A stretch of 64,000 nt of DNA from Candidatus Angelobacter sp. Gp1-AA117 (GTDB taxonomy: Bacteria > Acidobacteriota > Terriglobia > Terriglobales > Acidobacteriaceae), in the NCBI GenBank assembly GCA_003223515.1, contig QHVI01000012.1, positions 1-64,000 of the forward strand, written 5' to 3'. Made by a program: the position numbers and the translations under genes. Under the pieces are notes generated by a model. That model saw only the letters and a program-made list of their open reading frames with translations, searched no databases and was not told where the DNA came from. Below, in pieces: positions 22,685 to 25,610 of the stretch; the stretch's first letter is position 1; every line of letters starts with the position of its first letter.

Positions 22685-23677
22685 ATGGACCCGGTACGCC
22701 TGACCCGCCGTTTGGTAGATATTGAATCGATCTCAGGAAACGAGGGAGCCGTAGGCGCTGCTCTCTATGACGAGCTGTACCGGCTGGACTATACCGTCCA
22801 TAAACTTCCGGTGGCCCATGGCCGCTTCAACGTGCAGGCCACACTCGAGAACAAGCCGCCGGAGATCGTCTTCTCCACCCACATTGATACGGTTCCACCT
22901 TTCATTCCCTCTTCTGAAGACAGCGAAAACATCTATGGACGCGGCTCCTGCGACGCGAAAGGTATTGTGGCGGCACAGATTGCCGCCTGCGAGCGTCTGC
23001 GCAGAGAAGGCGCTGCCGTAGGAATGCTTTTTCTTGTAGGCGAAGAGCGTGACAGCCTGGGAGCCAGGGTCGCCAATCAGACTCCGCTGCACAGCCGCTT
23101 TCTCATCAATGGCGAGCCCACCGAAAACAAGATTGCCATGGCTTCCAAGGGTGCTTTGCGCGTGGAAGTGACTGCGCACGGCAGGATGGCCCATTCTGCT
23201 TATCCTGAACTGGGCGAATCAGCAATTGAAAAACTGCTGGACGTACTGCAGCAATTGCGCACAATGAAGCTGCCGGAGAACCCTGAAGTTGGCCCCACCA
23301 CCATGAACATCGGCATCATTGAAGGCGGACGCGCTCCCAATGTGATCCCCGATTATGCTCGCGCCCAATTGCTCTACCGCCTGGTCGGTCCGTCCGAGCC
23401 TTTGCGCCAAGAGATTACGTCCGCCGTTGCCGGCCTGGCGGAAGCGGAATTCATATTGGAGATTCCCTTCTGCAAGCTGCGCACCGTTGCCGGAATCGAC
23501 ACCATGGTGGCCTCCTTCACCACAGATATTCCCGCATTGAGCGCGTGGGGTGAACCGGTGCTTCTGGGGCCAGGATCGATCCATGTGGCCCATACCGAGC
23601 GTGAATACATCTCCAAGCAGCAACTGCATGAGGCGATAGACCTCTACTGCGATATCGCCCGCCGACTGCTGCAATAA
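22685..23677 (+). CDS. M20-family metallopeptidase/deacylase (ArgE/DapE-like)
   Basis: M20 enzymes use one or two zinc ions to remove acyl groups or amino acids. The 330-residue protein has STHIDTVPPF near 64-73 (first metal ligand), IYGRGSCDAKGIVAA near 83-97, EERDSLGA near 121-128 (catalytic Glu), GEPTENKIAM near 143, and a dimerisation domain with AHGRMAHSAYPELGESAI. HVAHTEREYISKQQL near the C-terminus gives the last His. The length is shorter than DapE/ArgE (about 375), near that of LysK-type deacetylases. No amino acid biosynthesis neighbour fixes the substrate. Confidence 0.85.
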   Translation: MDPVRLTRRLVDIESISGNEGAVGAALYDELYRLDYTVHKLPVAHGRFNVQATLENKPPEIVFSTHIDTVPPFIPSSEDSENIYGRGSCDAKGIVAAQIAACERLRREGAAVGMLFLVGEERDSLGARVANQTPLHSRFLINGEPTENKIAMASKGALRVEVTAHGRMAHSAYPELGESAIEKLLDVLQQLRTMKLPENPEVGPTTMNIGIIEGGRAPNVIPDYARAQLLYRLVGPSEPLRQEITSAVAGLAEAEFILEIPFCKLRTVAGIDTMVASFTTDIPALSAWGEPVLLGPGSIHVAHTEREYISKQQLHEAIDLYCDIARRLLQ

Positions 23678-23767
23678 CGCAAGCTTCATTCCATTTGTTT
23701 TCAGCCGTTTGCAACCTGTGTGAAACATTTGTCCTGTTTCCTGCACTAGCTATTGCCCAGTAGTACA

Positions 23768-23916
23768 AGACTGCTGGTGCATCAACTCTTAATGCCTGCG
23801 ATGCTGCGATCACTTCCAATATGGCGATTACACCCGCCAGCAGCGGTTCAGTGGGCGCCTTCGTTCCGCAGCAAAGTCACCTGGTGCTGGACATTAGCGG
23901 ATACTTCGCTCCGTAA
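23768..23916 (+). pseudogene. C-terminal remnant of an acidobacterial surface protein
   Basis: In one frame the sequence reads K-T-A-G-A-S-T-L-N-A, then AAITSNMAITPASSGSVGAF and finally HLVLDISGYFAP before a TAA stop. The ending VLDISGYFAP with a preceding T-L-N-A-x-D motif is a common tail of large secreted repeat proteins in Acidobacteriota (family memory, not a search). An in-frame TAG lies just upstream at about 23762 and no start codon is available, so only the last 45-50 codons of the former gene remain. Confidence 0.5.
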
Positions 23917-23920
23917 GACC

Positions 23921-23961
23921 TGTGTCCCAATACACGCATTAATAGCGTGTATTGGGACACA
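23921..23961. repeat. perfect 17-bp inverted repeat, possible operator
   Basis: TGTGTCCCAATACACGC (23921-23937) is followed by a 7-base spacer and its exact complement GCGTGTATTGGGACACA (23945-23961). There is no T-run after it, so it is unlike a rho-independent terminator. The right arm ends 17 bases before a TATAAT box, so a bound protein could block or activate that promoter. It also lies 5 bases after the stop of the remnant gene, so termination of an old transcript is an alternative role. Confidence 0.6.
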
Positions 23962-23978
23962 AACTATTCTGTTTCCGC

Positions 23979-23984
23979 TATAAT
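23979..23984 (+). promoter_or_regulatory. candidate -10 box for tRNA-Ser and the precursor peptide
   Basis: A perfect TATAAT lies about 110 bases before tRNA-Ser. The -35 candidate GGGACA (23954-23959, 19-base spacing) is weak and falls inside the right arm of the palindrome. Confidence 0.4.
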
Positions 23985-24096
23985 GAAGGTGCACGTGAGT
24001 GTGCTTCCCGAAAGATGCTTTGCTGCATCGGGACTTCGCAGGACTTTCCACAGCCAGCGACTGCGGAATCTCGAGTGCTATGTCGTTTTAATTTAC

Positions 24097-24190
24097 GGAG
24101 AGGTGGCCGAGTGGCTGAAGGCGGCGGTTTGCTAAACCGTTATAGGGGCTAACACTTCTATCGGGGGTTCGAATCCCCCCCTCTCCGCCA
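24097..24190 (+). tRNA. tRNA-Ser (anticodon GCT)
   Basis: A 94-nt class II tRNA: acceptor GGAGAGG/CCTCTCC, D-arm GCCGAGTGGCTGAAGGC, anticodon loop TTGCTAA (anticodon GCT, reads AGC/AGT), long variable arm of about 20 nt as expected for serine, T-arm GGGGGTTCGAATCCCCC and encoded CCA. The 3' end is intact and no duplicate of it is seen in the window, so it shows no sign of use as an integration site. Confidence 0.96.
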
Positions 24191-24220
24191 GTAAAGCAAC
24201 ATTCTGCAAAGGAGTACACC

Positions 24221-24379
24221 ATGAAACCTGCGACACCCAAAAAACTGATTCTTAGTCAGGAAACTCTTAAGAGCCTGACACCACAAGAGATTTCTGGGAA
24301 AATAACCCGGGATTTTTCTGCAGGTAATTGCACGGTCGGAAGCGTTCCACCGTGCCATATGACCATGAAGGATTGTTAG
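24221..24379 (+). CDS. lanthipeptide-like precursor peptide
   Basis: The 52-residue ORF is preceded by AAAGGAG with 6 bases to the ATG. The N-terminal part, KKLILSQETLKSLTPQEISG (7-26), looks like the leader of class I lanthipeptide and related natural-product precursors (pattern K-K-L-x-L-x-x-E-T-L-x-x-L-T-x-x-E). The C-terminal part has three cysteines, each preceded at exactly four positions by Ser or Thr: S33-A-G-N-C37, S41-V-P-P-C45 and T48-M-K-D-C52. That is the geometry for three lanthionine rings, ending on the last residue. No LanB, LanC, protease or transporter gene lies in the window, so enzymes would act in trans. It lies 30 bases after tRNA-Ser with no terminator between. The function is inferred from pattern only. 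Confidence 0.7.
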   Translation: MKPATPKKLILSQETLKSLTPQEISGKITRDFSAGNCTVGSVPPCHMTMKDC

Positions 24380-24398
24380 AACTGAGTCTGACGATTCC

Positions 24399-24436
24399 AA
24401 CAAGCCAACCCGCAGGGGTTGGCTTTGTTGTTTAGC
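24399..24436 (+). terminator. rho-independent terminator after the precursor peptide
   Basis: AACAAGCCAACCC (24399-24411) pairs with GGGTTGGCTTTGTT (24416-24429) with one bulged base and a GCAG loop, followed by a short GTTTAG tract. It lies 19 bases after the stop codon and probably ends the tRNA-Ser/precursor transcript. Confidence 0.75.
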
Positions 24437-24548
24437 AAGGATCTCCGAAGCCTTTCAGATATATGTAAGTCGTGGAATGAAAGTAGCTGAACCTGAAAAT
24501 CTTATGTCTGCGCTGGTAAAACGCCATCGCATCGATTTGCAATTATTG

Positions 24549-25610
24549 CTATTTTGGCAATTCTCCAGCTTCTATTTTCAGCAACTTTCTCTTCCGCTCT
24601 GTCCCCCAGCGATAGCCTTCAGGACTGCCACTCTTATGCACTACGCGATGACAGGGCACCAGCACCGCCAGATTGTTTGACGCGCAGGCGCTGGCCACGG
24701 CGCGCACTGCTGATTGGCGGCCAATCAGGTGGGCTATTTCGGAATAGGTTCTCGTCTGGCCTGGAGGAATCTTCTGCAACTGCTGCCAGACTTTTTGCTG
24801 GAACGCAGTGCCGCGAATATCGAGCGGTATGCTGTGCGAGGCCTTCTCACCAGCGATCAGTTGACGAAGCTGTTTTGTCCACTGCGCCAGCCCTTTGTCA
24901 TCCCGATTGATGAGGGCGCGCGGATATTCGGATTTCAAGATGTTCTCAAGACTGTCATTCTCCAGGAAGTGTACGGAGCATACGCCTTCGGCGCCGGCCA
25001 CCAGCACCGCATTTCCGAGGCGGGTGTTCACCAGGGCAAAGCGCAAATCTTCCTGTCCGGCGCCGCTGCTGTAATTTCCCGGAGGCATGCCCAGCCTGGC
25101 CCGCGCCGTCTCATACACGCGGCTGGAGGAGCTATAGCCTGCATCTGCCCACGCCGTAGTCACCGAGTTACTCCGCAGGGCGCTCTTAAACCGGGAAAAA
25201 CGAAAGGCTTGCAGATACCTGGCCGGAGAGATACCCAATTCGGCGGTAAACATCCGCTGCAGGTGAAAACGGCTGATGCCGGCAACCTTGCTCAGCGATG
25301 CAAGGGTGATCTTCTGGTCGGCGTTGCTTTCCATGTAGCGGCACAGGCGCTCGACCAGCTTGGCATTGCCGGAGGAACCATTCAGCGGCTTGCAGCGCAG
25401 GCACGCCCGCAACCCTGCTTTCTCGGCGTCACCGCAGGAGGAGAAAAACTTCACGTTCTTGCGCAGCGGGCGGCGCGCCGGGCATGATGGACGGCAATAC
25501 ACGCCGGTGGAAAGAACTCCGAAGACGAAAGTGCCGTCGGCCTGGCGGTCTCGCTCAAGAACCGCCTGCCAGCGGGAATCATTCACGGAAACAGGGCCGG
25601 AATTCTTCAT
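24549..25610 (-). CDS. ada: Ada: bifunctional alkylation-repair methyltransferase and regulator
   Basis: Ada repairs O6-methylguanine and methylphosphotriesters and activates its own regulon. The N-terminal zinc domain has GVYCRPSCPARRP and GLRACLRCKP, the four zinc cysteines, the first of which accepts methyl from phosphotriesters. An AraC-type HTH (SLSKVAGISRFHLQRMFTAE) follows at about 105-190, then the methyltransferase domain with active-site VLVPCHRVVHKSG near the C-terminus. I chose ATG 25610 (M-K-N-S-G-P), giving 353 residues against 354 in E. coli Ada; the frame is open to 25697. All three functional parts look intact. Confidence 0.93.
   Translation of the reverse strand: MKNSGPVSVNDSRWQAVLERDRQADGTFVFGVLSTGVYCRPSCPARRPLRKNVKFFSSCGDAEKAGLRACLRCKPLNGSSGNAKLVERLCRYMESNADQKITLASLSKVAGISRFHLQRMFTAELGISPARYLQAFRFSRFKSALRSNSVTTAWADAGYSSSSRVYETARARLGMPPGNYSSGAGQEDLRFALVNTRLGNAVLVAGAEGVCSVHFLENDSLENILKSEYPRALINRDDKGLAQWTKQLRQLIAGEKASHSIPLDIRGTAFQQKVWQQLQKIPPGQTRTYSEIAHLIGRQSAVRAVASACASNNLAVLVPCHRVVHKSGSPEGYRWGTERKRKLLKIEAGELPK

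Follow-up and report, generated by a model that had tools for sequence, protein, structure and literature searches.

Leaders of the LxLxKx5L type have been described for class I lanthipeptide precursors of Bacteroidetes (Walker et al., 2020; PMC7268733), in an account whose main text does not contain 'acidobacteri'. In the class II prochlorosins and synechococsins, many precursors spread over the genome share one conserved leader and are modified in trans by a class II enzyme, with reported copy numbers of 29 ProcA and 79 SyncA (PMC10783134, PMC10027976, PMC12328550). A CCG metal site has been tied to the promiscuous ProcM-like LanM enzymes of this kind (PMC10783134, PMC10027976). Here we analyze a short ORF of Candidatus Angelobacter sp. 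Gp1-AA117 (genome G000), whose product, P0001, we take with a probability of about three in four to be a class I lanthipeptide precursor whose gene lies apart from those of its enzymes, with modification in trans by a remote LanB/LanC.

The P0001 reading frame and its tRNA neighbor

The window, the whole stretch of 64,000 nucleotides that was analyzed, is carried by a contig of 89,891 bases (C168). P0001 is encoded in an intact frame about 30 nt behind tRNA-Ser(GCT), and its 52-residue product, MKPATPKKLILSQETLKSLTPQEISGKITRDFSAGNCTVGSVPPCHMTMKDC, ends on a Cys. The features of the locus are as follows.

24097..24190, + strand: tRNA-Ser, anticodon GCT (ARAGORN; Rfam tRNA match at 24097-24187)
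24208..24214, + strand: ribosome binding site AAAGGAG, read from the sequence; strong, precedes the ATG
24221..24379, + strand: precursor peptide gene P0001, putatively of class I lanthipeptide type by leader homology, unclustered with enzymes
24242..24277, + strand: conserved leader motif KLILSQETLKSL, residues 8-19, LxLx(Q/K)x5L type, from alignments
24278..24376, + strand: linker and predicted core TPQEISGKITRDFSAGNCTVGSVPPCHMTMKDC, from the translation and the core Cys enrichment across nine paralogues
24317..24331, + strand: candidate ring S33-x3-C37, from the sequence
24341..24355, + strand: candidate ring S41-x3-C45, from the sequence
24362..24376, + strand: candidate ring T48-x3-C52, from the sequence
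24402..24425, + strand: terminator-like hairpin with a broken T tail, TGTTGTTTAG, from a terminator scan

P0001 has no Gly-Gly leader end, and linker and core are listed as one stretch. The original prediction had described a 52-residue ORF with a good ribosome binding site and three Ser/Thr-x3-Cys motifs (S33/C37, S41/C45 and T48/C52) that take up every Cys, and the translation and the AAAGGAG sequence agree with it on both counts: P0001 has three Cys in total, each with a Ser or Thr at -4. It had also given the gene a terminator of its own; the hairpin at 24402-24425 is there, but its T tail is broken, and the region 23650-24560 holds two terminator-like sites, one of them within P0001, against a shuffle mean of 1.2. 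No terminator was called between tRNA-Ser and P0001 in the scan of that region. The regular spacing of the candidate rings is only mildly unusual, since shuffles of the 33-residue stretch beyond the leader motif place Ser/Thr at -4 of all three Cys in 0.5% of cases, and at any one common spacing of 2-6 in 2.1%.

The tRNA-Ser has orthologs that are 98-100% identical in five congeners, and the match to the window stops at the tRNA end. In G003, G004 and G006 (L111-L113), phage-type integrase genes directly follow the orthologous tRNA-Ser, which marks the site as a hotspot of integration within the genus; the tRNA neighbor of P0001 therefore looks incidental. A 15-base piece taken from the 3' part of the tRNA is not repeated anywhere in the window, so that an element boundary cannot be seen. 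The original prediction had proposed a search for homologs near tRNA-Ser, but tRNA adjacency does not generalize: one of nine family loci lies directly behind a tRNA. Of the other eight, seven lack a tRNA within the stretch fetched, and the eighth has a tRNA-Ala some 730 bp off. Sharing a transcript with a tRNA is thus ruled out as a general functional link, on these counts and because the match to the congeners ends with the tRNA. LanB enzymes are reported to use glutamyl-tRNA (PMC9993889), and we therefore claim no link to tRNA-Ser.

A leader family scattered over the genome

Searches with the whole peptide returned P0001 itself alone, with no relatives in 60 related genomes, the GTDB collection, viral contigs or plasmids; the matches outside G000 in the 60 genomes (E 0.09-1, 22-45 residues, 28-45% identity) were taken as chance. 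P0001 matched no Pfam or NCBIfam model. Specifically, it gave no match to the NCBIfam class I leader models NF038153 and NF038158 (lant_leader_L1a and L1b), and no Pfam match to a Nif11-type leader was obtained for P0001 or its paralogue P0002. Among the paralogues described below, only those on C22 (13.0 of 22 bits, L1a) and C185 (15.7 of 27 bits, L1b) reach the class I leader models at all, both below cut-off. P0001 thus lies outside the NCBIfam leader families, as their models are unreached.

A profile of the leader, built at first from P0001 and P0002 and refined afterwards, was the sole search to find relatives of P0001. In G000 it finds nine intact leader ORFs on nine contigs (C168, C128, C31, C22, C173, C92, C148, C199 and C185), at E-values from 8.9e-10 to 6.2e-7 with the refined profile and 4.6e-8 for P0001, which thereby belongs to a family with eight further members at other places in the genome, as the original prediction had allowed. 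The shared leader reads KLxLxQET(L/I)xxL, with Q at the K position in 9/9, and is followed by cores that are unrelated to one another and carry two to four Cys each. Cys is absent from all nine leaders and makes up 28 of 292 core residues, against a background of 1.0% in seven larger enzyme-type proteins of the same genome. Over the 12 leader codons of the nine paralogues, pN is 0.179 and pS 0.925 (pN/pS 0.19), so the leader is constrained at the protein level. The sequence 5' of the ATG is Shine-Dalgarno-like in all nine by inspection.

The spacing from Ser/Thr to Cys differs from member to member. The equal S/T-x3-C spacing that was to be sought in homologs is seen at 3/3 Cys of P0001, at 3/4 in two paralogues and at 0-1 in the other six, and equal rings are ruled out as a family hallmark, being peculiar to P0001 among the nine. 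The flanking ORFs that were searched next to the paralogues are unrelated: they encode an isocitrate lyase, CrcB, an FHA-GAF-cyclase protein, an amine oxidase, a pterin dehydratase and a product with a weak lactonase match, and one has no match.

The next-best leader matches in G000, on C2 (E 0.154) and C54 (E 0.339), are both degenerate copies on reading (L080 and L079, respectively), and they show that family members decay. By eye, the Cys-containing end of the C54 copy is out of frame with its leader. Two such copies, the integrases behind the orthologous tRNA-Ser and the lack of whole-peptide relatives would all suit a P0001 that is itself a relic: a copy of a precursor gene that stayed behind at a hotspot of integration and lost its expression or modification. 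Yet its frame is intact, its ribosome binding site strong, its leader full (the E-value of 4.6e-8 above) and every Cys keeps its Ser/Thr at -4, and the tRNA piece that might mark an insertion is without a second copy in the window; we consider a relic quite unlikely, and keep to the reading of P0001 as a precursor modified in trans.

The leader family is absent from eight congeners, where the refined profile gives a best E-value of 1.0 and the first profile one of 0.77, to a stretch within a 482-aa frame; the best leader match in the 60 relatives (E 0.011) lies inside a 661-aa frame. LanB C-domain matches occur in six of nine genus genomes, with the leader family in G000 only. In three of them, a Thr-repeat protein is encoded beside a LanB homolog: G007 (L081:13569-14159), G003 (L082:13452-13967) and G001 (L083:3524-4111). 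These proteins carry the repeats ITKG or QLTKG, look secreted by eye and have a leader-like stretch, KLxVxQxTLRQQN or KLNLNQQTLRQQN, and the neighboring LanB is 47-49% identical to the LanB of contig C144 of G000. The fetched stretches around these three LanB genes hold no relative of the C144 LanC. Judging by the repeats and their neighbor, each may perhaps be a dehydrated repeat protein.

Linkage of the leader to lanC-lanB and the enzymes of G000

The phylum was represented by 396 genomes, nine of which gave matches to the leader profile at E<=0.01; six of these are real upon reading (G000, G176, G301, G341, G421 and G430). Those of G139 and G150 were rejected for lying inside 689- and 669-aa frames, and that of G419 for being a 53-aa frame without Cys. 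A LanB C-domain is found in 34/396 genomes, including 6/6 of those with real leader ORFs (Fisher 2.6e-7); with all nine leader genomes kept, the association is 6/9 (p 1.8e-5), and both tests include G000, from which the query came. In G176, G341 and G421, the gene order is homologous precursor, lanC, lanB, with the precursor immediately upstream of lanC, and the enzymes are 36-42% identical to the C144 pair; the G341 lanB ends at the contig edge, and lanC and lanB of G176 are separated by about 1.3 kb. The precursor of G430 lies 5.5 kb from lanB, and the fetched contigs of G301 hold no LanB.

The same linkage extends beyond the phylum. Among 244 LanB relatives in the GTDB collection, the best 80 were analyzed, and a leader ORF scoring at least 19 bits is present at 16 of these loci, which belong to Myxococcota, Paenibacillus, Actinomycetota, Verrucomicrobiota, Acidobacteriota and Accumulibacter; one of the 16, L179, is a training row of the profile. 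No leader ORF reaches 19 bits at the remaining 64 of the best 80, some of which lie on short contigs, while at 10 bits the count rises to 23 of the best 80, with L219 looking false. LanC is present in 15 of the 16 leader-bearing loci, so this leader type goes with LanC-LanB. The class I type of leader in the original prediction is upheld by the nine leader paralogues and by this leader type beside lanC-lanB in other genomes. P0001 might instead be a small structural or metal-binding protein that resembles a leader by chance or through another targeting signal, as its failure to match any family model would allow, but this is very improbable given nine-fold conservation of the leader with synonymous saturation, the occurrence of this leader type next to lanC-lanB across several phyla and the 6/6 co-occurrence with LanB. 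We therefore return to P0001 as a lanthipeptide precursor and to the enzymes that could act on it.

As predicted, no such enzymes are encoded nearby: contig C168 has no match to the LanB N-domain or the LanC-like family. The dehydratase and cyclase genes that were to be sought elsewhere in the genome are on contig C144, where LanC (P0006) and a full LanB (P0005) are encoded in overlapping ORFs with no leader-bearing precursor adjoining. In Pfam the LanB scores 516.7 and 221.4 bits for the two dehydratase domains, and it matches NisB (E 3.3e-39); the LanC scores 158.3 bits and matches NisC (E 5.6e-14). In the LanC, C287, C336 and H337 stand within W-C-Y-G and C-H-G motifs and presumably hold zinc, by analogy with NisC. 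The original prediction was to be given up if the genome held neither leader homologs nor lanthipeptide enzymes; it holds both. A motif scan found no leader ORF in 20 kb around the C144 lanC-lanB, where two gaps were also read. Upstream of this lanC are two short ORFs on its strand that contain Cys (L039:12339-12440 and L039:12725-12877). Both are without the leader motif and failed the Shine-Dalgarno filter, but a local precursor with another leader type may be present.

Besides the C144 LanC, the LANC_like matches in G000 are a LanC-like protein split over contigs C128 and C48 (L044:2-967 on the minus strand and L043:2-697 on the plus strand) and a complete class III LanKC (P0004) on contig C109 (L042:8066-10780); none is at the LanM cut-off. 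Contig C180 (L040:8772-19377) carries a large synthetase-like ORF between two LanB-like proteins that have the N-domain only; by eye, ORFs nearby look like an adenylation/condensation enzyme, a halogenase and ABC transporters.

Could P0001 be handled by another of these enzymes, be it the LanKC or the C128/C48 LanC-like protein, the latter by itself or together with the C144 LanB? The gene for P0002, on C128, adjoins the LanC-like gene, 231 bp away and divergent, and the LanKC is over its NCBIfam cut-off. The LanC-like protein has a W-C-H-G...C-C-G metal site, of which the C-C-G lies in the C-half (P0009) and is of the type tied to promiscuous ProcM-like LanM (PMC10783134, PMC10027976). Its N-part could be a leader-binding domain, as a match to ThcOx (PF22767) at 20.5 bits would hint, but the score falls short of the cut-off (27.7), the predicted fold is of poor quality (pLDDT 51), and such a domain was not upheld. 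Moreover, in other genomes the leader is linked to lanC-lanB like those of C144, and the motif scan found no leader ORF in 20 kb around the LanKC. A cyclase without a dehydratase carries out no dehydration, so the LanC-like protein by itself would not suffice. We regard handling by these enzymes as unlikely, and infer that the C144 LanB/LanC pair acts on P0001.

In the scheme that we favor, the leader KLxLxQETLxxL would be recognized by the C144 LanB, and perhaps by the LanC too. The LanB would dehydrate Ser and Thr of the core using glutamyl-tRNA, which is general LanB chemistry, and the adjoining LanC would then join Cys to the dehydrated residues, giving up to three thioether rings in P0001. 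Export, removal of the leader, the ring pattern and a biological role are parts of the scheme that we infer. With one common leader, diverging cores in large number could all be substrates of a single enzyme pair, in the way that ProcM handles the prochlorosins; the conserved leader and free cores fit such an arrangement.

Scattered precursor sets and known systems

Copy numbers were surveyed in 43 genomes, 5 taken by handle and the others being those of 39 of the 80 LanB loci, a chosen and non-random set in which one genome is counted twice (G301 and G458). Among the matches listed, 31 of the 43 have a leader match at E<=0.1 and most have 0-3 leaders, with higher counts in G454 (44), G483 (34), G451 (26), G452 (12), G449, G461 and G000 (9 each) and G469 (5). 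G454 and G483 are acidobacterial MAGs whose listed matches are mostly on separate contigs, and the matches of G451, G452 and G461 are likewise spread over many contigs. Several of the leader-rich genomes are MAGs, in which binning errors can inflate such counts. In 60 stretches read from seven genomes (G454, G483, G452, G449, G461, G450 and G469, with none from G451), 80 ORFs bear the leader at a score of at least 12 bits, and 74 of these have two or more core Cys. The 26 leader ORFs read in G454 lie on 18 contigs, and on one contig of 216 kb a leader ORF is separated by 73 kb from a pair, evidence against an artifact of binning.

Unlike these scattered sets, G449 (L307) and G469 (L318) hold mostly or wholly clustered arrays. 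L318 has six leader-bearing precursors and L307 eight; the cores of G469 are alike and those of G449 differ more. In the Phycisphaerae genome G452, five of nine ORFs read have at least two core Cys. Several precursors there (L299-L306) have long Ser/Ala-rich cores with few Cys, as if suited to dehydration more than to rings. In a quick LanB tree of 39 rows (L208 left out), the seven rows with at least five leader matches need 5 label changes, with 33/500 shuffles as low, and three label groups together need 12, with 1/200 as low. Such a tree does not establish one common origin for the scattered design. It is reasonably probable that some Acidobacteriota and Planctomycetota run combinatorial class I libraries, in which one remote, leader-guided LanB/LanC would serve nine to several dozen scattered single-gene precursors with freely diverging cores.

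By leader homology and genome content, P0001 is filed as a putative class I lanthipeptide precursor. Like class I LanA peptides, it is a short ORF with a ribosome binding site, a leader and a core with Ser, Thr and Cys; G000 has LanB and LanC, and homologs of P0001 adjoin lanC-lanB. Its LILSQETLKSL fits the LxLx-K-x5-L leader with Q for K (PMC7268733). It differs from the precursors of that account in having no Gly-Gly end, in being unclustered and in leaving the L1a/L1b models unreached. In the canonical class I cluster the precursor adjoins lanB/lanC, an arrangement seen neither at P0001 on C168 nor at C144. The same leader type and homologous LanC and LanB recur at clustered precursor-lanC-lanB loci (L106, L107, L108, L157, L158, L166, L168, L170, L171, L174, L176 and others), where the precursor is next to the enzymes, whereas none with this leader lies beside the C144 pair. 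The C144 enzymes match NisB and NisC, but the FxLD-type leader and compact operon of nisin are both absent for P0001.

With the prochlorosins, the G000 family shares a conserved leader, divergent cores and many unclustered copies, nine here and 44 among the matches listed in G454, against the reported 29 ProcA and 79 SyncA. The prochlorosins depend on a class II LanM, whereas G000 has class I LanB and LanC and no match that reaches the LanM cut-off, and their Nif11-type leader is not found in P0001. By analogy, P0001 would work like, but not belong to, the prochlorosin system. The literature searched, with most subscription papers outside it, gave no account of scattered class I precursors (PMC13083261, PMC8960859 and PMC11251773 included), and, with the leader type and the class II spread design already known, the same design in class I may be new. 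Genome mining by enzyme neighborhood would miss precursors of the P0001 type, because the relevant neighbors are absent. If one LanB/LanC pair does serve dozens of unlinked cores, peptide engineering could gain from it a substrate-tolerant dehydratase and cyclase of class I, and the design of one enzyme with many substrates would extend beyond LanM enzymes with a three-Cys zinc site. The proposed link between CCG and promiscuity would then become testable, with C-H-G in the C144 LanC and C-C-G in the C128 LanC-like protein, and the scattered family would be a class I counterpart of the prochlorosin system.
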